Source: Dechloromonas sp.
GTDB taxonomy: Bacteria > Pseudomonadota > Gammaproteobacteria > Burkholderiales > Rhodocyclaceae
Direction of reading: 5' to 3'
DNA: 45,447 nt
Assembly (NCBI GenBank): GCA_016790815.1
Contig: JAEUOG010000050.1
Coordinates: 1-45,447, forward strand
The position numbers and the translations under genes were made by a program. Position 1 is the stretch's first letter, and the number at the start of each line of letters is the position of its first letter. Shown piece after piece: positions 3,378 through 17,586 of this stretch. The notes beneath the pieces were generated by a model. That model was not told the origin of the DNA and ran no database searches. It worked only from the letters and a program-made list of their open reading frames with translations.

Positions 3378-3394
3378 TGCGGCAATATGTCGCA
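3378..3394 (+). promoter_or_regulatory. RegA/PrrA/RegR-like box upstream of the copper cluster
   Basis: TGCGGCAATATGTCGCA is an imperfect palindrome containing GCGGC-N5-GTCGC, the half-site arrangement of the redox response regulators RegA/PrrA/RegR. It ends just before the expected -35 position of a weak promoter whose -10 could be TAGGAT at 3418-3423. A second copy precedes the NosL genes at 12200. The regulator is inferred. Confidence 0.5.
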
Positions 3395-3449
3395 TCCCCT
3401 GCGCAGCCCAAACTGGGTAGGATGGCGCAAACGCGTTAGGGAGAGCGCC

Positions 3450-3626
3450 ATGAATCAAAAACAGACAACACAAAATCAGCCAGAAATGGCTTCCTTGCTG
3501 CTTGGCGCTGGCTTTGCACTGGCCTCGCTGATCATCCTGCCGGCCGTTGCCCAGCGCGTCGGCCTCGGCTCGGCGGTGACCATCGCCCTGCGTGGCGCAC
3601 TGATGCGGGCCTCGAACCGTTTTTGA
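3450..3626 (+). CDS. small single-pass membrane protein (58 aa)
   Basis: The peptide begins MNQKQTTQNQPEM. It has one hydrophobic stretch (LLLGAGFALASLIILPAVA) and a basic C-terminus, so it should be a small inner-membrane protein. AGGGAGA lies 6 bases before the ATG, a good ribosome site. No family recognised. It is the first gene of the copper cluster region and is separated from SCO by a terminator-like hairpin; the RegA-like box and its promoter sit upstream of it. Its Gly-rich helix resembles the hydrophobic part of the Met-rich protein at 8035, but that may be convergence. Role in copper handling is only inferred from position. Confidence 0.65.
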   Translation: MNQKQTTQNQPEMASLLLGAGFALASLIILPAVAQRVGLGSAVTIALRGALMRASNRF

Positions 3627-3656
3627 TCTGAGCGCTGTCGTAGCGGCATCACCACA

Positions 3657-3685
3657 GGCAGACTTCGTGTCTGCCTTTTGTTTTT
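3657..3685 (+). terminator. terminator or attenuator just upstream of the SCO gene
   Basis: GGCAGAC-TTCGT-GTCTGCC is followed by TTTTGTTTTT. The T-run ends 7 bases before the SCO start codon, so the hairpin occupies the place where its ribosome site and promoter would be. SCO transcription must either read through it or be attenuated by it. Confidence 0.7.
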
Positions 3686-3692
3686 CCGGACC

Positions 3693-4250
3693 ATGAAAAA
3701 ATTTGCCTTGATGGCCCTCGCCCTGGCGATGACACTGTTGATCGGTTGCCAGCAGGCACGCGATCCGAAACTGCCGGTCGGCGCCGATTTCGTCCTGCAG
3801 TCGGCCGACGGCCCGGTGGACTCGAAAGCCCTGCGTGGCAAGGTGTTGCTGGTCTATTTCGGCTACACCAACTGCCCTGACGTCTGCCCCGCCTCGCTCG
3901 CCTCCGGCGGCCAAGCGCTGAAGGCGTTGAGTGGCGAGGAGCGCAGCCGGGTCAAGCTGATCATGATCTCGGTCGACCCCGAGCGCGACAGCGTCAAGCA
4001 TCTGAAGGAATACACGGCCTTCTTCCATCCGGAAATGATCGGTGCCACCGGCACGGTCGAGGAAATCGCCACGCTGGCCAAGGCCTACGGTGCCGGATAC
4101 ATACTGCAGCCGAAGCGTGCCGATGGCAGCTACGCAGTCGATCACACGACCTCGACCTACGTCATCGGGCCGGATGGCAAACTGGCCAGCGTTCTTGAAC
4201 TCGGCGCACCGACCGACAAGGTAGTCGCGGCGGTAAGAAAGCTGCTTTGA
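3693..4250 (+). CDS. SCO1/SenC/PrrC family copper chaperone lipoprotein
   Basis: SCO proteins are membrane-anchored, thioredoxin-fold copper chaperones that metallate the CuA or CuB centres of respiratory enzymes or act as thiol reductants. The product (185 aa) has a lipoprotein signal with Cys19 in LLIGC. The copper-binding CPDVC follows at residues 61-65, and a distal His in VDHTTS near residue 150 completes the usual Cys-Cys-His site. The fold motifs VYFGYTNCPDVCP and ISVDPERD are intact. The start follows the hairpin terminator directly and no strong ribosome site is visible. Its stop overlaps the next start by one base, making it the head of a long overlapping operon. Confidence 0.92.
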   Translation: MKKFALMALALAMTLLIGCQQARDPKLPVGADFVLQSADGPVDSKALRGKVLLVYFGYTNCPDVCPASLASGGQALKALSGEERSRVKLIMISVDPERDSVKHLKEYTAFFHPEMIGATGTVEEIATLAKAYGAGYILQPKRADGSYAVDHTTSTYVIGPDGKLASVLELGAPTDKVVAAVRKLL

Positions 4251-4579
4251 TGCGGCCGTCGACGTTCGCACTCGGATTGCTGGCGGCGCTCGTCGCCGTC
4301 TGCCTTTTGATTTTTGGCCTGTTTTTCCGGTCGACCGTAGCAAACGAGGAAAAACTTCAAGCCAACCGCGCGCTGGTCGAAAAACTCGGCCTGACCGATC
4401 TCGCACTATTCACCGAAGCCCGCTACACCCGCCACCCGACCCAGGCCGACCTGCATTCGGCCCTGCAGGACCATCCCGGCGCCTTCGACCATTTCCCGAG
4501 CGGCTCGCTGCTTCCTCCCCCGGCTATCCTGACCCAATCCCATGCGAATCTGGCTGGAAAAACAACGTCACCTGATTGA
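4250..4579 (+). CDS. hypothetical membrane-anchored protein (109 aa) carrying an internal repeat copy
   Basis: No family recognised. One N-terminal transmembrane helix (ALGLLAALVAVCLLIFGLFF) is followed by a hydrophilic domain facing the periplasm, ending in a Pro-rich segment. It starts one base inside the SCO stop (TTTGATG) and overlaps the permease start by 38 bases, so translation is probably coupled. The dispersed 37-bp repeat (4305-4341) lies wholly inside the frame. It encodes the end of the membrane helix and the residues after it (FRSTVANEE), so part of this protein seems to have come from the repeat. Confidence 0.65.
   Translation: MRPSTFALGLLAALVAVCLLIFGLFFRSTVANEEKLQANRALVEKLGLTDLALFTEARYTRHPTQADLHSALQDHPGAFDHFPSGSLLPPPAILTQSHANLAGKTTSPD
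4305..4341 (-). repeat. dispersed 37-bp element, copy 1 (inside a gene)
   Basis: Reverse-oriented copy: GATTTTTGGCC, then the T-run, then TTTTTCCGGTCGACCGTAGC. Near full length; only GGTCGACC differs from the more common GGTTGACC core. Confidence 0.75.
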
Positions 4580-5675
4580 CTTCACGCTGGCCTCGCTGGC
4601 CCGGCGCAAGACGAAGAACATCGGCCTGCTGCTGGCCTACACGCTGCTCGTCTTCGTGCTCGCCTCGCTGACGCTATTCACCCACGCCTTGCGCACGGAG
4701 GCCACCTTCGTCCTGGCCGGTTCGCCGGAAGTGATCCTGCAACGCATGGTGGCTGGCCGGCACGATCTGATTCCGCCCGGCTACCTCGACAAGATCGGCC
4801 GCATCCGTGGCGTGCAGAAGAAGGAAGGCCGGCTCTGGGGCTATTACTACGACCCGGTGCTGAACGCCAATTACACCTTCATGGCGCGGCCGGCCGATGA
4901 GGTGGCGGACGGTCACATCATGGTCGGCAACGCGCTGGCCCGCGAGCGGGGGCTGGACAAACACAACACCATTTCCTTCCGCTCCTATTCCGGCAAGCTG
5001 TTCACTTTCGAGGTCTCGGCCGTGCTGTCGCCGGATTCCGAACTCCTCTCGGCCGATCTCGTGCTGCTCTCGGAAAACGACTTCCGCAGTTTCTTCGAGT
5101 ACCCGGCCGGGCACTACACCGACATTGCGCTGTCGGTGGCCAATCCGCAGGAAGTCCGCACGGTCGCCGCCAAGCTGTCGAGCGCGCTACCCGATTCCCG
5201 CCCCATCCTGCGCGAGGAAGTCCTGCGCACCTACCAGAGCGTTTTCGACTGGCGCGAGGGCATCATCCTGACGGTACTGGCCGGCGCCATCCTCGCCTTC
5301 GCCATCCTCGCCTGGGAGAAGGCATCCGGGCTGTCGGCCGAGGAAAAGCGCGAGATCGGCATCCTCAAGGCCATCGGCTGGGAAACCGGCGACGTCATCC
5401 GCATGAAAACCTGGGAGGGCCTGCTCATTTCGCTGACAGCCTTCCTGCTCGGCTTCATCGCCGCTTACGTGCATGTCTTCCATTTTGGCGCGGCGGTCTT
5501 CGAGCCGGTGCTCAAGGGCTGGTCAGTGCTTTACCCGAAATTCACGCTGGTCCCGGCGGTGGACGGCCTGCAGATCGCCACCCTGTTCTTCTTCACGGTG
5601 TTTCCCTACACGGCGGCAGTATTGGTGCCGATCTGGCGGGCGGCAATCACCGACCCTGATGCGGTGATGCGATGA
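4542..5675 (+). CDS. ABC transporter permease, FtsX/MacB type
   Basis: The 377-residue product has the layout of an FtsX-like permease: a first transmembrane helix (NIGLLLAYTLLVFVLASLTLF), a large periplasmic domain of about 190 residues, then three C-terminal helices. The coupling region EEKREIGILKAIGWETGDVIRMK before helix 3 is diagnostic of the family. It should pair with the ATPase that begins inside its stop codon (GATGA). Members of this type extrude or reposition lipoproteins, peptides or drugs instead of importing solutes. Here, flanked by SCO, TlpA and NosL genes, it may work on a copper chaperone or its target, as NosFY does for nitrous-oxide reductase; that analogy is inference. 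Confidence 0.88.
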   Translation: MRIWLEKQRHLIDFTLASLARRKTKNIGLLLAYTLLVFVLASLTLFTHALRTEATFVLAGSPEVILQRMVAGRHDLIPPGYLDKIGRIRGVQKKEGRLWGYYYDPVLNANYTFMARPADEVADGHIMVGNALARERGLDKHNTISFRSYSGKLFTFEVSAVLSPDSELLSADLVLLSENDFRSFFEYPAGHYTDIALSVANPQEVRTVAAKLSSALPDSRPILREEVLRTYQSVFDWREGIILTVLAGAILAFAILAWEKASGLSAEEKREIGILKAIGWETGDVIRMKTWEGLLISLTAFLLGFIAAYVHVFHFGAAVFEPVLKGWSVLYPKFTLVPAVDGLQIATLFFFTVFPYTAAVLVPIWRAAITDPDAVMR

Positions 5676-6346
5676 TCGAACTCAGCAACATCAAGAAAGC
5701 CTTTAACCAGAACCAGCCCAACGAATACTGGGCGCTGCACGGTATCGATCTGACGGTCGAAGCTGGCAAGGTCACCGCCTTCCGCGGCCCGAGCGGTTCT
5801 GGCAAGACCACGCTGCTGACCATCGTCGGCTGCCTGAGCCGACCGACCAGCGGCCGCGTGCGCTTCAAGGGCGAGGACATTTCCGGCCTGCCCGAACGCT
5901 TCCTGACCGACATCCGCCGCCAGAGCTTCGGCTTCGTCTTCCAGCAATTCAACCTGATCAAGGGCCTGTCGGCGCTCGAAAACGTCATCCTGCCGGCCTT
6001 TCCGACCGGCCGGCCACGCGCCGAACTGGTCGCGGCCGCCGGCGAACTCTTCGACCAGCTCAAGCTCGGCCACCGCAGCGCGGCCAAGGTCGAATGGCTG
6101 TCCGGCGGCGAACAGCAGCGCGTCGCCATCGCCCGCGCCCTGATCAACAACCCGGAAGTGATCATCGCCGACGAGCCAACGGCCAATCTAGATACCGCGC
6201 TATCCAAGGAATTCATGGCCATCCTCGAAGGCTTCACCGCCGCCGGCAAGACGGTGCTGTTGACCAGCCACGACCCGCTGGTCGTCGAATCGAGCGCCGT
6301 GCATCGCGTCGTCGGCATGCGCGACGGCCGCCTCGTGGACGGCTGA
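5672..6346 (+). CDS. ABC transporter ATP-binding protein, LolD/MacB type
   Basis: The 224-residue ATPase has all motors of the family: Walker A GPSGSGKTT near residue 39, Q-loop FVFQQFNLI, signature LSGGEQQRVAIARAL near 139, Walker B VIIADEPTANLD and the switch His in LLTSHD. Its length and sequence fit the LolD/MacB/FtsE group that drives FtsX-type permeases. It overlaps the permease by four bases and the next gene by one base, so all three are translationally coupled. Powering the adjacent permease is a safe inference; the transported substrate is unknown. Confidence 0.92.
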   Translation: MIELSNIKKAFNQNQPNEYWALHGIDLTVEAGKVTAFRGPSGSGKTTLLTIVGCLSRPTSGRVRFKGEDISGLPERFLTDIRRQSFGFVFQQFNLIKGLSALENVILPAFPTGRPRAELVAAAGELFDQLKLGHRSAAKVEWLSGGEQQRVAIARALINNPEVIIADEPTANLDTALSKEFMAILEGFTAAGKTVLLTSHDPLVVESSAVHRVVGMRDGRLVDG

Positions 6347-7353
6347 TGCTCTTCCAGCCCGCCATCATCGCGCTGCTCATGGCCGCCGGCGTCGCGGTAC
6401 TCATGCTGCTCGCCGCTGCGCCCTTCGCCGTGCAGGTCATCCGCCACTGGGACATCAATAGCGGCTCCGAGCGGCAACTGGCCCTGGAACGCCGTACCTA
6501 TCTGTTCTCGACGCTGCTGTCCTTCGTCATGCTCGCCCAGCTGGCGGCGCTGCTGCTTTTCGTCTTCAACGCCGACCGGCTGTCGGTCATGTTCGTCGGC
6601 GCCATGTGCGCGGTCGGTACGCTCAATGTCAATGGCTATGGGTTTCCCTCGTTGCTGACCCAGATCGCAGTCTTCTTTCTGGCGGCCATGTGGCTGGCCA
6701 TCAACCACGTCGACACCCAGGCCCGCGATTACCCGCTAGTTCGCATCAAATACGGTTTGCTGCTGCTCCTGCTGCCCGTTCTGGTCAGTAGTTTCTGGCT
6801 GGAATTCCAGTATTTCTCCGCCCTCAAGGCCAACGTGATCACCTCCTGCTGCGGCAGCATGTTTTCGGAGGAGTCGAAGACCATTGCCGCCGAGGCCTCC
6901 GGTCTGGAACCGCTGCCGGCCATCTGGCTGTTCTACGGCGCGATGGCTGCTGCCATCGGCGTCGCCTTGTGGCACTGGCGACGCGGCGGGCGAGTCAGCG
7001 GCTATCTGCTGGCCCTGACCAGTGCCGGCGGCTTCGTTGCTGCCATCACCGGCGTGTTGTCCTTCATTTCGCTCTACATCTACGAGCACCCGCACCACCA
7101 CTGCCCGTTCTGCATCCTGAAGCCGGAATACGATTACCAGGGCTACTGGCTCTACATTCCGCTCTTCGTCGCCACGGCGGCCGGGCTGGGCGCCGGGGCC
7201 ATGCAGCCCTTCGCCCGGGTGCCGAGTCTGGCCAGAATCATTCCTGCCATTTCCAGCCGTTTTTCCGGGTTGACCGCAGCAGGCTATATTCTGTTCACCG
7301 CGCTGGCCACCTGGTTCGTGCTGACTTCCAACCTGATCCTGATCGAACACTGA
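6346..7353 (+). CDS. polytopic membrane protein with Cys/His motifs (335 aa)
   Basis: No family recognised. About eight hydrophobic helices are visible. Two clusters could bind copper or form redox pairs: adjacent cysteines in ITSCCGSMF near residue 168, and HPHHHCPFC near residue 248. The start is the ATG overlapping the ATPase stop by one base. A Cys-rich, His-rich membrane protein between an ABC exporter and a TlpA-like thioredoxin suggests thiol or copper transfer across the membrane, perhaps functionally like DsbD/CcdA, but sequence similarity to those is not evident. A degenerate repeat copy (7250-7280) lies in frame near the last helices (SSRFSGLTAAGY). Confidence 0.7.
   Translation: MLFQPAIIALLMAAGVAVLMLLAAAPFAVQVIRHWDINSGSERQLALERRTYLFSTLLSFVMLAQLAALLLFVFNADRLSVMFVGAMCAVGTLNVNGYGFPSLLTQIAVFFLAAMWLAINHVDTQARDYPLVRIKYGLLLLLLPVLVSSFWLEFQYFSALKANVITSCCGSMFSEESKTIAAEASGLEPLPAIWLFYGAMAAAIGVALWHWRRGGRVSGYLLALTSAGGFVAAITGVLSFISLYIYEHPHHHCPFCILKPEYDYQGYWLYIPLFVATAAGLGAGAMQPFARVPSLARIIPAISSRFSGLTAAGYILFTALATWFVLTSNLILIEH
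7250..7280 (-). repeat. dispersed element, copy 2 (degenerate, inside a gene)
   Basis: CCGTTTTTCCGG-GTTGACCGCAGC keeps the T-run and the GGTTGACCG core with one extra G. The distal GATTTTGGCC block is largely lost. Confidence 0.5.
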
Positions 7354-7354
7354 A

Positions 7355-7843
7355 ATGCGCCTTTTTCTCCTGATTCTCGCCCTGTTTCTAAGTGCCTGCG
7401 GCAAGGAAGCGCCCAAGGCCAACATCAACATCGGCAGCATTGCCCCTACCTTCCAGACCTCCCGGGTCGATGGCGGGGCTGAGCATTTTCCCGCCGCCTA
7501 TTTCGGCAAGCCGCTGGTCGTCCGTTTCTGGGCCGACTGGTGCAAGTATTGCGAAGGCGAAATGAAGGCCATCGAAACGGTCTATCAGGCAAACAAGGGC
7601 AAGCTGCAGGTGCTGGCCATCAACGCCGGGCAGGACAAGGCAACGATCAACGCCTTCATCAAGAAGATCGGCGTCACCTACCCGGCGCTGCTCGATGAAA
7701 ACTCGGCCATCGCCCGCAGCTACGGCGTCGTTGGCCTGCCGACGACCTTCTTCATCGACGCCAAGGGCATCGTGCGCGGCAAGATCGTCGGCGAGGCCGA
7801 TGAGGCCACCTTCGCCCGCCACGTCCAGGAATTGCTGCAATGA
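7355..7843 (+). CDS. TlpA-like thioredoxin-fold lipoprotein
   Basis: The product (162 aa) has a lipoprotein signal with Cys15 in LSAC. A redoxin/TlpA domain follows with active site WCKYC (Cys63, Cys66) and the cis-Pro loop VGLPTTFFIDAKG. TlpA-type proteins reduce cysteines of copper chaperones such as SCO so they can load metal, which matches this neighbourhood. It starts two bases after the previous stop and overlaps the next start (ATGA). The exact electron donor is unknown; the polytopic Cys protein just upstream is a candidate. Confidence 0.9.
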   Translation: MRLFLLILALFLSACGKEAPKANINIGSIAPTFQTSRVDGGAEHFPAAYFGKPLVVRFWADWCKYCEGEMKAIETVYQANKGKLQVLAINAGQDKATINAFIKKIGVTYPALLDENSAIARSYGVVGLPTTFFIDAKGIVRGKIVGEADEATFARHVQELLQ

Positions 7844-8022
7844 GCGAGAACCGCGCCTGCGACCTGTGCAGCCTCGACGTCGGGATCAAGCCCTTCGTCC
7901 TGAACACGCCGGAGAAGCAGTACCAGTTCTGCTGCGAGGGTTGCCGGGGAATTTATGAGATGTTGCATGACATCAAGGAAACGCCGGTTCAAAATAGCCA
8001 GAATGCAGACAAGAAATCCTGA
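7840..8022 (+). CDS. free-standing heavy-metal-binding domain, like the N-terminus of CcoI/FixI ATPases
   Basis: This 60-residue protein has the pattern CDLCSLDVG then FCCEGCRGIYEML. That is the cysteine module found at the N-terminus of CcoI/FixI copper ATPases (I recall it as Pfam ATPase-cat_bd, PF12156). In those enzymes it is fused to the ATPase; here it is a separate protein encoded two genes upstream of the ATPase. Five cysteines in this arrangement should bind Cu or Zn. It overlaps the TlpA-like gene by four bases and has no signal peptide, so it should be cytoplasmic and could hand copper to the ATPase. Confidence 0.8.
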   Translation: MSENRACDLCSLDVGIKPFVLNTPEKQYQFCCEGCRGIYEMLHDIKETPVQNSQNADKKS

Positions 8023-8034
8023 AAGGAAACGACC

Positions 8035-8412
8035 ATGATGACCGAAGAAATGATGAAGAACATGCCGCACATGATGAGTCAGGCCGGCCACATGATGAGC
8101 AAGCCGATGGCCACCGGCGCGATGATGGCGGGCGCCGGCTTTGCCGCCGGCAAGGGCCTGCTCGGCGGCGCCCTGCTACGCAATCCGCTGGCCCTGCTGG
8201 CCGTCGGCGCGGCGGGCGGGATTGCGGCCGGTTTCCTGTTCTTCAAGTATCAGAAGGAAATCGTCGAAGGTCTGTCCAAGGCGACCGGCATGGGCAAGGA
8301 TTTCGCGCTGCACCAGAAGGAAAACCTGAACGACCTGATGGCCGAAGCTGAGGACAAGCTCGCCGGCAATCCGCCGCCGGCCGCAGCGGCCAGCGAAACC
8401 CCGGCTGCCTGA
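8035..8412 (+). CDS. methionine-rich small membrane protein (125 aa)
   Basis: Twelve of the first 31 residues are Met, with His12 and His19, in MM and MxxM spacings (MMTEEMMKNM, HMMSQAGHMMS). This resembles the Met clusters that bind Cu(I) in CopA/PcoA-type proteins and CTR transporters. A glycine/alanine-rich hydrophobic region follows (about residues 34-76), probably one or two membrane helices. A charged helix and a Pro/Ala-rich tail end the protein. AAAGGAAAC precedes the ATG. No family recognised. Copper capture or delivery at the membrane is inferred from composition and neighbours. Confidence 0.75.
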   Translation: MMTEEMMKNMPHMMSQAGHMMSKPMATGAMMAGAGFAAGKGLLGGALLRNPLALLAVGAAGGIAAGFLFFKYQKEIVEGLSKATGMGKDFALHQKENLNDLMAEAEDKLAGNPPPAAAASETPAA

Positions 8413-8422
8413 CGGAGGCCGC

Positions 8423-9019
8423 ATGACGCAAACCGCCGAACTGGCGCAACGCATCGTCGTTCTGCACCGCGAGCCGGGCTATCTGCGCCTCGAACTGCCG
8501 GCCGAAATCTGCGGCGAGACCGCCGTGGTCGCCCTCGAAGAGGGCATGAAATCTCTGGCCGGATTGAGCAGTGCTGCGGTCGACCGTGGCTGGAAGCGGA
8601 TTTCCATCCGCTTCGATGCGCTGATTTTAAGCACGTCCGAGGTCGCCCGCCACCTGTTCAGCCTGCTGCCCGGCCTGCCGCTGGATGCAGCACCGGCTGC
8701 AGAGCCGGAAGTCGCCCCGTCCTTAGACCTGAATAACGGCTTGCAGCCGCTGCTCGACAAGCTCAAGGCAATGATCATTCCGGTCGAGCCGCCGCCCGAA
8801 GGTTCGCTGCAGGCCCGTTTCCAGCCGATGGTCGAAAGCGCCCTGACCGAGAAGGCAATCACAAATTTCTTCAACGACATCGTCGCTTTCTACCTGATCC
8901 GCGTGCATTGGGACCTGATCACCAAGCGCTGGCTGCAAAATCCGGTGGCCAACAGCAATGCCTGGCTGACGGTGTTCTACCTCGTCTTCCTGCTCGTCCG
9001 CTACCGCAAAACCAAATGA
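8423..9019 (+). CDS. hypothetical protein with HMA-like N-terminus (198 aa)
   Basis: The first 75 residues (HREPGYLRLELPAE, then WKRISIRFDALILS) have the beta-alpha-beta rhythm of a heavy-metal-associated domain but lack the CxxC pair. This resembles the degenerate HMA region at the start of the next gene's product. A Pro/Ala linker and a C-terminal region with one or two hydrophobic stretches (AWLTVFYLVFLLVRY) suggest membrane attachment. It overlaps the ATPase start by four bases (ATGA). It may be a partner or docking subunit of the ATPase; no named family can be assigned with confidence. Confidence 0.65.
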   Translation: MTQTAELAQRIVVLHREPGYLRLELPAEICGETAVVALEEGMKSLAGLSSAAVDRGWKRISIRFDALILSTSEVARHLFSLLPGLPLDAAPAAEPEVAPSLDLNNGLQPLLDKLKAMIIPVEPPPEGSLQARFQPMVESALTEKAITNFFNDIVAFYLIRVHWDLITKRWLQNPVANSNAWLTVFYLVFLLVRYRKTK

Positions 9020-11448
9020 CTCCCAAGCATTTCCGGATCGCCCACCGCCTGCGCCGCCGCCTTCGGGTGCTGGCGCCCGCGCTCGAAAAAGAGCAGGAGC
9101 GGTGCTACATCCTGGAAATCCTGCTGCGCAAGCATCCGGCCATCAAGGAGGTACGCATCGTCGCCGACATCGGTTCGCTGGTCGTCGAATACGACCCCGC
9201 GGCCTTGCCGGAAGAGCGGCTGCTGGCGACGCTGGACGCCGTGCTCGGCAACCTGATCGCCGCGCCGAAAGCGGCGCCGGTCGTTGCCGCGCCGGTCGAC
9301 GGCCCGGTGCAGGAATGTTCGCTGGCCATCGAAGGCATGAGCTGCGCCTCCTGCGCCCTGCTGATCGAAATGAAGCTCAAGCGCGACCCGCGCGTGCGCT
9401 ACGCCTCGGTCAACTTCGCTGCCGAGACGGTGACGGTCAATGGCGTCATCGACCGCGAAGCGGTGTCGAAAGTCGTCGGCGCGCTGGGTTACTCAACGCG
9501 GCCGATGGACACGCTGAGCCAGCGCCGGCTGATCGTCGAGCGTGAAAAAGAGCGCGTCGAGGAAGCCAAGAAGCGTTTCATCCAGGCAGCCATCCTGACC
9601 GTGCCGGTGATGATTTCCGGCATGGCCATGCATCGCTCGCCGGCTTTGCGCGTCATGGAGTTCGCCCTGTCGTCGGCCATCCTCTTCGGCAGCAGCAACA
9701 GCATTTTCCGCAAGGCCTGGATGCTGGCCAAGCAGGGCGAGGCCAACATGGACACGCTGATCGCCATCGGCGCCGGCGCCGCCTGGGCCTACAGCATTCC
9801 CGGCGTGCTGAAGATGCACCACCACGTCTATTTTGAGTCGGCCGCCGGCATCTGCACCTTCGTGTTGCTCGGCCGCTACATGGAAGAACGCGCTAAGGGC
9901 AAGGCAGGCGAGGCAATCCGCAAGCTGATCGAACTGCAGCCGGAAACGGCACTGCGCATCGAGGCCGACGGCACCGAATTCGAAGTGGCCATCGACGACG
10001 TGCAGATCGGCGACCGCCTGCGCGTGCGGGCCGGCGACAAGATTCCGACCGACGGCTGCGTGCTCGAAGGCGCTTCCTCGATCGATGAAGCGATGATTAC
10101 CGGCGAATCTCTGCCGGTGGCCAAAACCACCGGCGACAAGGTGATCGGCGGCTGCCTGAACGGCAACGGCAGCTTTGTCATGACCGTGACCGCGGTTGGC
10201 GGCGACACCGTCCTCTCTGGCATCGTCAAGCTGGTCGACCAGGCGCAGGGCAGCAAGCTGCCGGTGCAGAAACTGGCCGACCGCATTTCGGCCCGCTTCG
10301 TGCCGGCTGTCGGCGGCATTGCCGCGCTGACCTTTGGCGGCTGGGCCATGGCCGGCGCCCCGGTGTCCGCAGCACTGGCCCATTCGGTCGCCGTGCTGCT
10401 CATCGCCTGCCCCTGCGCCCTCGGGCTGGCCACGCCGACTGCCATCATGGTCGGTACCGGCCAGGCCGCCAAGCGCGGCATCTACATCCGCAACGGCGAA
10501 GCGCTCGAAACGGCGGCCAAGCTGACCACCATCGTTTTCGACAAGACCGGCACGATCACCGAAGGCAAGCCGGTCGTCACCGACACCTTCATCCTACCTG
10601 GCATCGACGAAGCCCGACTGGCCGGCCTGATCGGCGCTGCCGAAGCGGGTTCCGAGCATTTCCTGGCGCGCGCCCTGGCCGAGTGGAGCAAGCCACGCCG
10701 GAAAGACACGCTGGCCGCCGAATCCTTTGCCGCCCACCCGGGGCGCGGCGTCACGGCGCAGGTCGATGGGCTGGACATCGTCATCGGCAACGCCGCCTTG
10801 CTCGACGAAATGGGCATTGCCTGCGCGCCGCTGGCCGATGAAGCGCACCGCCTGGCCGAACAGGGCAAGACGCCGGTCTTTGCTGCGGTCGACGGCCAAC
10901 CGGTGGCCATTTTTGCCATTGCAGACCAGGCCCGCCAAGGCGCCCGGGAAGCCATCGCCCTGCTCCATCACCTCGGCCTAAAAACCGTGATGGCGACCGG
11001 CGACCTGGAAGCCGTCGCCAGCCACGTCGCCCGCGAAGTCGGCATCGACCATGTACTGGCCCGCTGCACCCCGGCCGACAAGCTGGCCGCCATTCGCCAG
11101 CTGCAGGAAGCCGGCGAAAAGGTCGGCATGATCGGCGACGGCATCAACGACGCGCCGGCCCTGGCCGCCGCCGACGTCGGTTTCGCCATCGGTGGCGGCG
11201 CCGACATCGCCGTCGAATCGGCCGACATCACGCTGGTCGGCGGCGATATCGCCCGTGTTGCAGCCGGCATCGACCTGTCGCGGCGGACCATGGCGATCAT
11301 TCGCCAGAACCTGTTCTGGGCGCTCGGCTACAACGTCATCGCCATCCCCGTCGCCGCCGCCGGCCGGCTCAACCCGATGATCGCTGCGGCAGCGATGGCG
11401 ATGAGCTCGACCTCGGTTGTTGCCAACTCCCTGCGCCTGCAACGGTGA
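9016..11448 (+). CDS. P1B-type copper-translocating ATPase (CopA/CcoI group)
   Basis: The 810-residue pump exports Cu(I) from the cytoplasm. Order of domains: a degenerate HMA-like region without cysteines (about 1-80), an HMA domain with GMSCASC near residue 107, and membrane helices with CPC near residue 465. Then come the phosphorylation site DKTGTITEGKP near 509, and GDGINDAPALAAADVG with the final helices FWALGYN and AMSSTSVVANS. TGES is present. One oddity: the nucleotide-binding HP dipeptide normally read as SEHPLA is SEHFLA here (His near 548), so the Pro is missing. Full length otherwise. Genes for copper chaperones on both sides suggest it loads a periplasmic cuproenzyme instead of conferring resistance. 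Confidence 0.92.
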   Translation: MTPKHFRIAHRLRRRLRVLAPALEKEQERCYILEILLRKHPAIKEVRIVADIGSLVVEYDPAALPEERLLATLDAVLGNLIAAPKAAPVVAAPVDGPVQECSLAIEGMSCASCALLIEMKLKRDPRVRYASVNFAAETVTVNGVIDREAVSKVVGALGYSTRPMDTLSQRRLIVEREKERVEEAKKRFIQAAILTVPVMISGMAMHRSPALRVMEFALSSAILFGSSNSIFRKAWMLAKQGEANMDTLIAIGAGAAWAYSIPGVLKMHHHVYFESAAGICTFVLLGRYMEERAKGKAGEAIRKLIELQPETALRIEADGTEFEVAIDDVQIGDRLRVRAGDKIPTDGCVLEGASSIDEAMITGESLPVAKTTGDKVIGGCLNGNGSFVMTVTAVGGDTVLSGIVKLVDQAQGSKLPVQKLADRISARFVPAVGGIAALTFGGWAMAGAPVSAALAHSVAVLLIACPCALGLATPTAIMVGTGQAAKRGIYIRNGEALETAAKLTTIVFDKTGTITEGKPVVTDTFILPGIDEARLAGLIGAAEAGSEHFLARALAEWSKPRRKDTLAAESFAAHPGRGVTAQVDGLDIVIGNAALLDEMGIACAPLADEAHRLAEQGKTPVFAAVDGQPVAIFAIADQARQGAREAIALLHHLGLKTVMATGDLEAVASHVAREVGIDHVLARCTPADKLAAIRQLQEAGEKVGMIGDGINDAPALAAADVGFAIGGGADIAVESADITLVGGDIARVAAGIDLSRRTMAIIRQNLFWALGYNVIAIPVAAAGRLNPMIAAAAMAMSSTSVVANSLRLQR

Positions 11449-11449
11449 A

Positions 11450-11487
11450 TATTTCAATTTTGGCCGTTTTTTACGGTTGACCGTAGC
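11450..11487 (-). repeat. dispersed element, copy 3 (between ATPase and TauE/SafE genes)
   Basis: Full-length reverse copy: TATTTCAATTTTGGCC, then the T-run, then ACGGTTGACCGTAGC. It occupies nearly all of the 48-base gap between the two genes. Confidence 0.85.
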
Positions 11488-11496
11488 AAGGCACTC

Positions 11497-12198
11497 ATGG
11501 ACCACAGCCAGCACCACGCCATCGCCGAGTTTTCCTACATGCTCGCCTTCATGACCGGCCTGCTCGGCAGTGGCCATTGCCTGGGCATGTGCGGCGGGCT
11601 GGTTTCCGGATTCTTCATGAAGCTGGGCGCCAAGGGCGTCTGGCCGTATCTGGCCTATCACGGGGCGCGGGTCGGCATCTACACGGTCGTTGGCCTGATT
11701 GCCGCGGCGATTGGTGCAGTGCTCATTTCCACTGGCCAGTTCGGCAAGCTGCAGGGCGTGCTGCAGATCGTTGCCGGTATCGTCGTCATCCTGCTCGGTC
11801 TCGATCTGCTCGGCGTCTCGCCCTTCCGCAACCGCCTCGGTTTCGCGCCCATCGCCTGGCTACGCAAACAATTCATGCTGGCTGTTCAGAAAGGCCCGGT
11901 GGTCGGCGCGCTGATCGGCGGTGCCATCAACGGCCTGATGCCGTGCTCAATGACCATGGCGATGGCCGTCAAGGCCACCACGGCGCCTTCGGTGCTGGAA
12001 GGTGGCCTGCTGATGCTGGCCTTCGGTGCCGGCACCCTGCCCTCGATGCTGTCGGCTTCCTTCCTGTTTGGCAAGCTCGGCCCGAAACTGCGTGGCTGGC
12101 TGCTCAAAGGCGCTGCGCTGTTCGTTATCGCGCTGGGCGTATCGACGCTCTGGCAGGGCATCCGTTACTACGCCGTGATGAACAAGCTGCTCGGCTGA
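11497..12198 (+). CDS. TauE/SafE (UreH/DsbD-like) family membrane protein
   Basis: The 233-residue protein has six predicted helices. It carries the family's paired motifs, GSGHCLGMCGG at residues 25-34 and NGLMPCSM near 146-153, whose Cys residues lie in or near the membrane. Proteins of this type are commonly encoded beside CcoI/FixI ATPases and SCO genes in betaproteobacteria and are thought to move copper or electrons. A His-rich N-terminus (MDHSQHH) could add metal ligands. It is separated from the ATPase only by a repeat copy and from NosL by about 80 bases that contain a new regulatory site. Annotation as a sulfite exporter would be misleading here. Confidence 0.85.
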   Translation: MDHSQHHAIAEFSYMLAFMTGLLGSGHCLGMCGGLVSGFFMKLGAKGVWPYLAYHGARVGIYTVVGLIAAAIGAVLISTGQFGKLQGVLQIVAGIVVILLGLDLLGVSPFRNRLGFAPIAWLRKQFMLAVQKGPVVGALIGGAINGLMPCSMTMAMAVKATTAPSVLEGGLLMLAFGAGTLPSMLSASFLFGKLGPKLRGWLLKGAALFVIALGVSTLWQGIRYYAVMNKLLG

Positions 12199-12199
12199 G

Positions 12200-12216
12200 T
12201 GCGACACTATGTCGCA
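12200..12216 (+). promoter_or_regulatory. RegA/PrrA/RegR-like box upstream of nosL genes
   Basis: TGCGACA-CTA-TGTCGCA is a perfect 7-bp inverted repeat containing GCGAC-N5-GTCGC. It lies just upstream of a possible -35 TTGGCA (12220). The site at 3378 has the same layout and shares TATGTCGCA apart from one base. Probable operator for the nosL pair. Confidence 0.55.
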
Positions 12217-12278
12217 GGCTTGGCACATCACCGGGCGCTAATATTGAATGGCTAACAAACAATGAAAGGGAGAGCAAA

Positions 12279-12884
12279 ATGAAACGCCGTGACCTTCTCA
12301 AACTATCCGCCCTGTCCGGCCTCGCCACAGTCTCTGCACAGGCCGGGGCCAATACCGCCTGCGCTACCGACGGCACGCCGAACCAGTTCATTCCCAAGAA
12401 AGCGGCCGACGCCAAGCCGCTGGAAAACGAATTCGAGAAATACCCGAAGTGCCCGTATTGCGGCATGGATCGCAAGGAGCATCACCGTGCCCGCATGCTG
12501 GTCCAGTACGCCGATGATCTGAGCGATGGCGTCTGCTCCATCCACTGCCTGGCACTCAGCCTGGGCGTCAATATCGACCGCGAACCGAAGAACATCTGGG
12601 GCCCGGATTACGGTTCGACCGTCGAACCGCGTCCGCTGCTTCCGGTCGACAATCTGACCTACCTGATCGGTGCCGATCTCAAACATGCAATGACCAAGAA
12701 AAGCAAGCATTCCTTCGCCTCGGCCGACATTGCCAAGGAATTCCAAGCCAAGCATGGTGGCACACTGGGCAATTTCAACGATGCCTTGCGTGAAAGCTAT
12801 CTCGGCATGGCCGACGACGTGAGCATGATTCGCAAGAACCGCGAAGAACGCCGCAAGCGTGCCGCAGAAATGAAGAAGGGCTAA
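12279..12884 (+). CDS. NosL family copper-binding protein 1 (Tat-type signal)
   Basis: NosL proteins bind Cu(I) and support assembly of nitrous-oxide reductase or related copper enzymes. The product (201 aa) starts MKRRDLLKLS, a twin-arginine-like signal with no lipobox, followed by the diagnostic CPYCGM (Cys58, Cys61, Met63). A second Cys region is DGVCSIHCLAL. GGGAGAG precedes the ATG. The next nosL starts on the last base of its stop codon. No nosZ is in the window, so the recipient enzyme is unknown; the link to copper is strong, the link to denitrification is inference. Confidence 0.88.
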   Translation: MKRRDLLKLSALSGLATVSAQAGANTACATDGTPNQFIPKKAADAKPLENEFEKYPKCPYCGMDRKEHHRARMLVQYADDLSDGVCSIHCLALSLGVNIDREPKNIWGPDYGSTVEPRPLLPVDNLTYLIGADLKHAMTKKSKHSFASADIAKEFQAKHGGTLGNFNDALRESYLGMADDVSMIRKNREERRKRAAEMKKG

Positions 12885-13366
12885 TGAAACGCCGCGCCCT
12901 TCTCGGCCTCGGGCTGGCGCTCTGCGCCAGCCTGGCCTTTGCCCAGGCCGTGCCCAAACCCGGCGCCAAGGATCTATGCCCGGTGTGCGGCATGCTGGTA
13001 TCCAAGTACACGAACTGGGTAGCTGTCGTTACCTGGAAGGATGGTCACGCCCATTTCTTCGACGGTGCCAAGGACATGTTCAAGTTCCTGCACGACCTGC
13101 CCAAGTACGCGCCGAATCATCGCAAGGAAGACATTGCCGGCATCTTCGTCACCGATTTCTACAATCTGGAACGGATCGATGCACGCAAGGCGCTGTTCGT
13201 CATCGGCTCCGACGTTCTCGGCCCGATGGGCCATGAACTCGTGCCGCTGGCCAGCAAGGTCGATGCCGATGATTTCCTGAAGGACCACAAGGGCAAACGA
13301 ATCATCGCCTTCGACCGCGTCACAGCCAATATTCCGGTCGCCCTGGACTCGGGCAAGTTCGACTGA
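12884..13366 (+). CDS. NosL family copper-binding protein 2
   Basis: The second NosL-type protein (160 aa) has a Sec signal (MKRRALLGLGLALCASLAFA, cleavage likely after AFA) and CPVCGM at residues 32-37. The family core DGAKDMFKFL follows, with FVTDFYNLERIDARKA further on. It lacks the lipid-attachment Cys typical of NosL lipoproteins and lacks the extra Cys pair of its neighbour, so the two are not simple duplicates. The 1-base overlap TAATG couples their translation. It ends the copper cluster; trmA follows after 145 bases without a shared signal. Confidence 0.88.
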   Translation: MKRRALLGLGLALCASLAFAQAVPKPGAKDLCPVCGMLVSKYTNWVAVVTWKDGHAHFFDGAKDMFKFLHDLPKYAPNHRKEDIAGIFVTDFYNLERIDARKALFVIGSDVLGPMGHELVPLASKVDADDFLKDHKGKRIIAFDRVTANIPVALDSGKFD

Positions 13367-17372: not shown

Positions 17373-17449
17373 TGGTGCGCCCGGAGCGATTCGAACGCCC
17401 GACCCCTTGGTTCGTAGCCAAGTACTCTATCCAGCTGAGCTACGGGCGC
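17373..17449 (-). tRNA. tRNA-Arg (anticodon ACG), copy 2 of the pair
   Basis: 77 bases including an encoded CCA. The acceptor stem is GCGCCCG / CGGGCGC, the D-arm AGCTCAGCTGGATAGAG, the anticodon loop CTACGAA and the T-arm GTTCGAATC. ACG is the A34 (inosine) decoder of CGN codons. The mature sequence is identical to the copy 60 bases upstream. Confidence 0.96.
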
Positions 17450-17509
17450 ACACCTAAACTGCTTTTTACTGCGTTGCCGAAACTTTCAACTTTCGGCGGG
17501 TTGTTCTGC

Positions 17510-17586
17510 TGGTGCGCCCGGAGCGATTCGAACGCCCGACCCCTTGGTTCGTAGCCAAGTACTCTATCCAGCTGAGCTACGGGCGC
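17510..17586 (-). tRNA. tRNA-Arg (anticodon ACG), copy 1 of the pair
   Basis: Same 77-base sequence as the gene at 17373, with CCA encoded. It is the promoter-proximal copy; both are probably processed from one transcript. Confidence 0.96.

Follow-up and report, generated by a model that had tools for sequence, protein, structure and literature searches.

A cluster of 14 open reading frames spans positions 3450-13366 of a 45,447-nucleotide window from Dechloromonas sp. (the whole stretch of DNA that was analysed). All lie on the forward strand and their ends mostly overlap, with 8 of the 13 gene junctions overlapping or one base apart (Table 1). Every part named by the initial annotation was recovered there, its view that these parts are copper-handling families is supported, and position 3378, where it starts, is where a regulatory palindrome begins. 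No published description of the cluster was found among open-licence PMC papers. Judging from sequence, the conserved gene set probably collects copper and passes it to N2O reductase.

Table 1. Genes and regulatory features of the cluster, in window positions.
Feature	Position	Strand	Evidence
Palindromic regulatory box TGCGGCAATATGTCGCA, 55 bases before p62	3378..3394	+	TGCGRCA-N3-TGTCGCA
Candidate -10 hexamer TAGGAT, 23 bases past first box	3418..3423	+	TA-N2-AT, same spacing, 15 close relatives aligned
p62, 58-aa small membrane protein	3450..3626	+	No significant Pfam family
Terminator-like hairpin and T run between p62 and SCO	3656..3676	+	Recurs in close relatives
SCO1/SenC-type protein, lipoprotein-like	3693..4250	+	PF02630 3.2e-39; CxxxC and His conserved
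sm110, one predicted membrane anchor and short domain with three conserved His	4250..4579	+	No family matched
FtsX-type (LolC/MacB-like) ABC permease	4542..5675	+	PF02687
ABC ATPase, LolD/FtsE/MacB kind	5672..6346	+	PF00005 3.6e-32
335-aa polytopic membrane protein, eight helices	6346..7353	+	Conserved Met/Cys/His
TlpA-like thioredoxin lipoprotein, CxxC	7355..7843	+	PF00578 5e-24
60-aa TRASH / ATPase-cat_bd Cys domain	7840..8022	+	PF12156 27.2 bits vs cut-off 27
Met-rich membrane protein	8035..8412	+	Met count in homologues
HMA_2-like protein without CxxC, 198 aa	8423..9019	+	Sequence comparison
P1B-1 Cu(I)-transporting ATPase, N-terminal HMA_2 and HMA domains	9016..11448	+	TIGR01511 6e-170, PF19991, PF00403
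DsbD_2 membrane protein	11497..12198	+	PF13386 3.2e-40
Second box copy, exact palindrome, before NosL1	12200..12216	+	TGCGRCA-N3-TGTCGCA
Candidate -10 hexamer TAATAT, 22 bases past second box	12239..12244	+	TAA(T)AT kept at same spacing, most of 18 aligned sites
NosL1, NosL-family, Tat-like signal	12279..12884	+	PF05573 4.6e-12
NosL2, NosL-family	12884..13366	+	PF05573 6.4e-28

The core kept in relatives consists of sm110, the FtsX-type permease, the ATPase, and the 335-aa protein, usually with TlpA and often with two NosL proteins. The expectation that these genes would cluster in other genomes is borne out, as all 62 loci with sufficient sequence have the permease and ATPase genes next to the 335-aa gene and 61 of the 62 have sm110 there too. 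A TlpA gene lies near the 335-aa gene in 51 of 66 loci, p62 is found within 4 kb upstream of it in 32 of 58, and a NosL pair is in range in 27 of 41. The SCO gene is present in 29 of 58 loci, and the block encoding the TRASH domain, Met-rich protein, HMA_2-like protein, and P1B ATPase also occurs in 29 of 58, always with all four genes together (each of the first three in 29/29 P1B-bearing loci). Neighbour counts in the low-GC loci L078, L080, and L147 are lower bounds because the codon model, trained on the high-GC window, missed most genes there. Since the P1B block is optional, the initial description of one complete 14-gene module is too strong.

Among PDB sequences the permease matched LolC (2.4e-7), and its structure model (pLDDT 76) matches LolCDE (E 1.6e-15) and MacB (2.8e-12). 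The ATPase has intact Walker A, LSGGE signature, and Walker B motifs. Permease fold and kind of ATPase are thus shared with the FtsX-type, type VII ABC transporters, and this closeness in structure and sequence to LolC/LolE and MacB would suit a LolCDE-like transporter for lipoproteins or envelope stress whose co-transcription with copper genes is incidental. Such a role is highly improbable, since there is a single permease gene, which scores 39.1 bits against the LolCE equivalog TIGR02212 (cut-off 362.45) and is tied to the 335-aa protein in every testable locus and to nosZ in two lineages. Nor is the fused ATPase-permease model for MacB (PRK10535) reached, the two separate proteins scoring 10.9 and 189.9 bits against a cut-off of 966. 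Unlike LolCDE and MacB, the unit stands in an operon of copper proteins that lacks MacA, LolA, and LolB.

The partners of this unit carry conserved residues of their own. In sm110, H63, H76, and H82 (numbering of the 110-aa form) are kept in at least 98% of 61 sequences. The 335-aa protein has no Pfam or NCBIfam match at E 0.1, and its conserved M82, M87-C88, C168-C169, and H251-H252-C253-x2-C256 lie in loops of one face, which by the positive-inside rule would be periplasmic (4 K/R in 98 residues versus 12 in 85). A lipobox pattern is present in 48 of 55 homologues of the TlpA-like protein.

In the P1B block, C7, C10, C31, C32, and C35 of the TRASH domain are invariant across 37 sequences, and the Met-rich protein averages 9.2 Met in its first 35 residues (35 homologues, range 1 to 12) versus 2.2% Met elsewhere. 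The ATPase carries CPC, N-x6-YN-x4-P, and M-x2-SS-x5-N, all three transmembrane motifs of the set (CPC, YN, MxxSS) that we take to mark P1B-1 Cu(I) ATPases. The 198-aa HMA_2-like protein, initially read as an HMA-like copper chaperone, is not a CxxC chaperone because it has no Pfam match and a single Cys, with no Cys conserved across 36 sequences. The DsbD_2 protein, at first assigned to TauE/SafE, has invariant C28, C32, C150, and several Met in 30 sequences. The SCO protein exceeds the PF02630 cut-off with 134 bits, and C60, C64, and H150 are kept in 100%, 94%, and 100% of 33 sequences.

P1B-1 ATPases, Met-rich proteins, and TRASH domains also occur in efflux systems, so the ATPase and periplasmic binders might protect against copper excess. 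Copper tolerance is nevertheless a very unlikely purpose, given that half of the loci (29 of 58) lack the P1B block, that the window holds no CueR-like operator with up to three mismatches, and that the regulatory box is shared with a copper-import receptor, which points to supply.

Both NosL-family proteins exceed the PF05573 cut-off of 24 (46.9 bits for NosL1, 98.1 for NosL2). Invariant residues are C57, C60, M62, C85, and C89 in NosL1 (47 sequences) and C32, C35, M37, M115, and H135 in NosL2 (40 sequences). An RR-x-hydrophobic pattern occurs in 37 of 46 NosL1 homologues, and NosL2 matches the solved NosL structure 7og7 (6.6e-8). A lipobox pattern within the first 35 residues was found in 0 of 39 NosL2 and 0 of 46 NosL1 homologues; the NosL of P. 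stutzeri has an N-terminal lipobox (PMC7558416).

Genome context elsewhere points to a client. Three Thauera genomes place the core behind a clade II nosZ operon on the same contig, in the order clade II nosZ, cytochrome c, nosD (TIGR04247, 367 bits), nosG/nosH-like, ABC, nosL/nosY-like, then sm110-FtsX-ABC-335-aa-TlpA-NosL1-NosL2. In Magnetospirillum aberrantis the core and clade II nosZ point away from each other, separated by one small gene, and T. aminoaromatica S2 has only a clade I nosZ, on the core's contig. The earlier observation that no N2O reductase is included thus holds for the present cluster but not for Thauera or M. aberrantis. NosDFYL likewise combines NosL-family carriers with an ABC transporter, is nosZ-linked, and likely has the same client. 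The cluster differs from it in an FtsX-type permease (PF02687) in place of NosY, in two NosL proteins, and in the additional 335-aa protein, sm110, and TlpA; no NosD match was obtained among the 14 products (NCBIfam run on 10 of 14). Because the Thauera core stands beside a complete nosDFYL-like set, the cluster is an addition to NosDFYL, not a substitute.

Co-presence gives a divided picture. Across the order (399 genomes), nosZ is found in 8 of 10 genomes with the cluster and 20 of 389 without it (p 8.6e-9, a value that ignores relatedness). Within the family (6/7 versus 5/6) and, for clade II NosZ, within the genus (11/16 versus 15/20) there is no association, and simple co-presence as proof was rejected at both levels. 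Many genomes evidently do without the cluster, as 15 of the 20 genus members lacking it have clade II NosZ. Conversely, nosZ is absent from G005 (100% complete), which has the cluster and boxes, from G214 (99% complete), which has the 335-aa gene, from G011 (85% complete), and from the present assembly, G000 (76% complete). At E 1e-20 it is absent from 20 of 50 cluster-bearing genomes, whose completeness is not stated. Several Gallionellaceae-like MAGs also have cluster and box without nosZ, and such genomes count against clade II N2O reductase as the exclusive client.

The box supplies a second connection. With up to one mismatch it stands ahead of the cluster in 40 of 59 loci, versus 0.94 expected from its rate elsewhere in the same loci, and before NosL1 in 11 of 34 testable loci. 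The exact sequence TGCGRCANNNTGTCGCA occurs at four places in the searched part of G000 and the reversed pattern at none; in G000, G029, G031, and G034 together, exact boxes number 10 and reversed ones 0. Nine of these ten are upstream of the cluster, NosL1, nosZ, TonB-type receptors, or tonB-exbB, and one follows a TonB receptor gene. Clade II nosZ has the box upstream (up to one mismatch) in 26 of 28 loci, 25 of 26 within the genus, and in all 11 of the other cluster-bearing genomes that had enough sequence; this survey left out the nosZ upstream regions of G071 and G076, and L183 (G066) was too short. The box is absent from Thauera, the alphaproteobacterial loci, and six other loci. Since the control site is shared with nosZ in relatives and nosZ adjoins the core in others, the cluster probably serves N2O reductase. 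The remote cuproenzyme initially proposed is the likely client, and operon linkage and the shared box allow it to be named as clade II N2O reductase.

Other genes preceded by the box are those for OprC-like TonB receptors, tonB-exbB, regBA, and an SCO-PCuAC operon, whose PCuAC member is presumed such from its sequence. This operon is divergent from nosZ in the three box-nosZ loci that were read and is present without nosZ in G005. Seven of eight receptors checked at boxes have both CxxxM and HxM, and the receptor at G000:C70 lacks the OprC motifs. These two motifs are the Cu(I) motif reported for OprC (PMC7558416). The likeness to NosA/OprC with SCO and PCuAC chaperones lies in these receptors, whereas here the receptor and SCO-PCuAC genes are encoded apart from the cluster and joined only via the box. 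Among 30 box sites in eight further genomes, six have no assignment and three lie by cyaY.

The half-sites GCGRC and GTCGC resemble RegA-type sites and give the box its likeness, at the level of sequence, to the RegBA/PrrBA/RegSR redox regulon. In Bradyrhizobium, the promoters of nosR and norC are bound by RegR, with boxes such as TGCGGC- and TGCGAC- (PMC4064962). The near-perfect palindrome with fixed spacing seen here, a putative RegA site, contrasts with PrrA sites, which are reported to be degenerate and to vary in spacer length (PMC4263372). RegB/RegA genes stand at a box in six genomes among the sites listed, with the quinone motif GGXXNPF in five of six, and a RegA homologue occurs in 8 of 10 genomes searched, the exceptions being G014 (one box of the GC-rich core) and G105 (no box). 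FNR/DNR control was rejected, as TTGAY-N4-RTCAA with up to one mismatch occurs four times in the window versus 2.9 expected and never at 3.3-3.6 kb. A CRP/FNR-like protein considered as box reader is present in 5 of 15 genomes; RegA fits better because that protein is absent from G031 and five box-bearing Gallionellaceae-like genomes. The promoter behind the 3378 box would be activator-dependent, since its -10 hexamer is conserved and no -35 consensus precedes TAGGAT. The hairpin after p62 recurs, with its position kept, in close relatives (L018, L019, L021, L024, L025, L031, L034, and L045 among them), for which reason p62 may be partly a separate transcript, but with 14 terminator-like sites in the region versus 9.2 expected the hairpin is weak evidence alone.

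The reading we favour, with some confidence, is that these genes form a redox-controlled regulon that supplies copper mainly to clade II N2O reductase. General low-oxygen copper supply, in which cbb3-type or other oxidases take priority and N2O reductase is served only if the genome has it, is a less probable account. The combination of P1B-1 ATPases with DsbD_2 and SCO proteins is reminiscent of cbb3 biogenesis, and cluster and box do occur in nosZ-less genomes. A CopA2-type role is described in PMC7558416, and PMC13068155 offers a nosZ-less precedent in Parageobacillus, where a NosDFY/NosL locus is suggested to serve nitrite reductase (FtsX is mentioned there in a reference on cell division). 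Against oxidases as the first client, the cluster contains no ccoNOP, none was noticed by eye among the box sites listed, and the sites in the genus belong to nosZ, copper uptake, and copper carriers.

Under the favoured supply of N2O reductase, the cluster would be a redox-regulated envelope system for copper acquisition and handover, and its main client in this lineage is fairly likely to be the clade II (Sec-type) enzyme encoded elsewhere in the genome. A reduced quinone pool would lead RegA to switch the box-bearing genes on together. Copper would enter via the TonB receptor, or Cu(I) would be exported by the P1B-1 ATPase, fed by the TRASH and Met-rich proteins. NosL1 and NosL2 would carry periplasmic copper towards CuZ, and SCO and PCuAC towards CuA. 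With sm110, the FtsX-type permease and ATPase may spend ATP on making a copper carrier dock or let go, as NosDFY does for CuZ, and the 335-aa protein with TlpA and DsbD_2 may keep Cys ligands reduced or pass Cu(I) along its Met/Cys/His loops. More tentatively, the core could work beside NosDFY as an additional ABC machine, of the FtsX type, that assembles the copper centres of N2O reductase. ATP would then drive a NosL1/NosL2 handover station at the inner membrane, the periplasmic Met/Cys/His loops of the new eight-helix protein would either bind Cu(I) or transfer thiol electrons, and OprC-like copper uptake would fall under the same RegA-type switch.

N2O is a greenhouse gas whose only known biological sink is N2O reduction, and NosZ fails without copper. 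Two families without functional context, sm110 and the 335-aa protein, are now given one. If the module loads clade II NosZ at low copper, the sourcing of copper for CuZ and CuA of this enzyme becomes testable by simple deletions, and the module would be a genetic marker of N2O reducers active under copper limitation.

The copper-delivery cluster proposed in the initial annotation is real and belongs to a conserved module. Its 14 ORFs are tightly packed, 8 of the 13 junctions being overlapping or one base apart, and encode recognised families (SCO, FtsX permease, ABC ATPase, TlpA, PF12156/TRASH, P1B ATPase, DsbD_2 and two NosL) alongside five proteins (p62, sm110, 335-aa, Met-rich and HMA_2-like) for which family searches returned no family of their own. 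The flanking genes (FliL, SIR2, phasin, tRNA methyltransferase) are unrelated to the cluster. No published description of the module was found in the open-licence PMC literature searched.

Coordinates of the cluster and associated features
Sequence	Position	Strand	Feature
Window	3378		Box before p62
Window	3450-13366	+	Cluster of 14 ORFs
Window	3656-3676		Terminator-like hairpin directly 3' of p62
Window	12200		Box before NosL1, followed by TAATAT
Window	17373-17586		Tandem tRNA-Arg(acg) gene pair
Locus L032	6806-7370		Tandem p62 pair; three boxes before and between the copies
G063:C9 (Gallionellaceae-like MAG)	102585		Box by cyaY (frataxin)-like gene
G069:C10 (Gallionellaceae-like MAG)	63804		Box by cyaY (frataxin)-like gene
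G077:C32 (Gallionellaceae-like MAG)	589980		Box by cyaY (frataxin)-like gene

Searching 84,980 species for the 335-aa protein, by a method that picks up close relatives only, yielded 73 loci in Rhodocyclaceae, Thauera, Gallionellaceae, Sulfuricella, other beta- and gammaproteobacteria and a few alphaproteobacteria. Gene presence was counted at loci with enough sequence and within a fixed search distance, genes displaced further not being counted (in L029, L053 and L087 one or more lie ∼10 kb off). The FtsX and ATPase genes were found at 62/62 loci, sm110 at 61/62, TlpA at 51/66, p62 at 32/58, SCO at 29/58, NosL1 at 28/41, NosL2 at 27/41 and DsbD_2 at 18/41. The P1B ATPase is present at 29 of 58 loci and the TRASH, Met-rich and HMA_2-like genes at all 29 of those, which resolves the cluster into a core and an optional block, putatively for cytoplasm-to-periplasm Cu(I) export. 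Near the cluster in L019, L026, L040, L043, L083 and L087, a NosL1-like gene lies on the opposite strand; judged by eye from sequence, it adjoins a TonB receptor (L019, L026, L043, L083), in addition sigma-factor and FecR-like genes (L026, L043), and a formylglycine-enzyme-like gene (L026, L083). These neighbourhoods perhaps represent another copper-related set.

The permease model resembles LolE/LolC and MacB, and the ATPase retains its motifs intact, which makes a mechanical cycle powered by ATP likely. The 335-aa protein carries three conserved motifs on one face, predicted by charge count to be periplasmic. A Tat-like signal occurs in 37 of 46 NosL1 proteins, which are perhaps exported folded. 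In contrast to Pseudomonas stutzeri NosL, neither NosL1 nor NosL2 has a lipobox pattern, and both may be soluble shuttles. Ca. Nitricoxidivorans perseverans, in a culture that reduces NO and N2O, is reported to express two consecutively numbered nosL genes remote from nosDFZ, the product of one being detected in the proteome at an abundance like that of NosF (PMC10390337). The two are candidate counterparts of NosL1 and NosL2. The cluster is present in the second member of the culture, Ca. Nitricoxidireducens bremensis (L083).

Genomic position links the core to nosZ. The core lies ∼9 kb behind clade II nosZ on one contig in Thauera butanivorans and in two Thauera MAGs (L072, L064, L061), with cytochromes, nosD (TIGR04247), NapG/H-like ferredoxins, an ABC ATPase and nosL/nosY-like genes in the interval. 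In Magnetospirillum aberrantis it is divergent from clade II nosZ with one small ORF between, and the clade I nosZ of T. aminoaromatica S2, preceded by regBA-like genes, lies ∼11 kb from it on the same contig.

The second link is the palindrome TGCGRCA-N3-TGTCGCA, the sole strong block common upstream of p62 among 15 aligned close relatives, in which TA-N2-AT follows 23 bases after the box. The hairpin after p62 is kept in close relatives and suggests that a box-driven promoter yields a short transcript of p62, with part of the transcription reading through into the cluster. Allowing up to one mismatch, the box lies no more than 400 bases 5' of the cluster at 40/59 loci versus 0.94 expected; it is absent there from six Thauera loci, from seven alphaproteobacterial or unplaced loci and from L028, L037, L068, L069, L076 and L088. 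It precedes NosL1 at 11/34 testable loci. Upstream of clade II nosZ it occurs at 26/28 loci: 25/26 within the genus (the remaining locus, L118, has a site with two mismatches) and one of two from other families. It also precedes clade II nosZ in 11/11 additional betaproteobacterial genomes that carry the cluster and offer sufficient sequence, but at 0/8 loci from Thauera, Sedimenticola, alphaproteobacterial or unplaced genomes. At nine nosZ loci (L091, L094, L095, L109, L112, L114, L116, L180, L182) a second, more degenerate copy directly follows the first, unlike the single cluster box.

Co-presence with nosZ depends on taxonomic depth. Among 399 genomes of the order, 10 encode the 335-aa protein, and clade II NosZ occurs in 8 of these versus 20 of the 389 others (p 8.6e-9). 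This does not extend to the family (6/7 with the protein versus 5/6 without) or to the genus (clade II NosZ over cut-off in 11/16 genomes with the cluster versus 15/20 without); given the family counts, the association is between lineages. Among 50 genomes reached through the loci, clade II NosZ is over cut-off in 24, and 30 have any match at E 1e-20. The suggestion of delivery to a remote cuproenzyme holds in part: position and box indicate clade II N2O reductase, but not exclusively, since G005, a 100% complete genome, has the cluster, boxes, regBA and SCO-PCuAC and lacks NosZ. In Parageobacillus, a NosDFYL locus without nosZ has been suggested to serve nitrite reductase (PMC13068155).

Other box-bearing genes point to a candidate regulator. 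Four genus members hold 10 exact boxes (1-4 per genome) and no match to the reversed pattern. Nine of the boxes precede the cluster (2), NosL1 (1), nosZ (3), TonB-type receptors (2) and tonB-exbB (1), and the tenth sits 3' of a TonB receptor gene and 5' of a BNR-like gene. Eight further genomes, six of them Gallionellaceae-like MAGs, contain 30 sites and five of the reversed pattern. The 30 fall at the cluster (13), between a TonB receptor and regB-regA (5), at regBA (1), an SCO-PCuAC operon (1) and a CRP/FNR gene (1), and by cyaY (3), with six unassigned. Seven of eight box-associated receptors checked (exception at G000:C70, in the source genome) have both CxxxM and HxM, the reported Cu(I) motif of OprC (PMC7558416). 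Divergent from nosZ at L122, L126 and L127 is a conserved operon in which a membrane-anchored protein of ∼178 aa is encoded with SCO and a PCuAC-like protein; G005 retains this SCO/PCuAC-like operon and its box although it lacks nosZ. RegA homologues occur in 8/10 genomes searched, with regA directly before the cluster in G005 and ∼4 kb from nosZ in genome G034, and GGXXNPF, described as a RegB motif (PMC8191878), is present in 5/6 RegB proteins. The box half-sites match RegA-family boxes, which in Bradyrhizobium include those of nosR and norC (PMC4064962), and this fit makes RegA a candidate regulator at the putative sites. The initial interpretation gains partial support in a more specific form, with clade II N2O reductase as the probable main, though not exclusive, client of the module and RegA as its candidate regulator.
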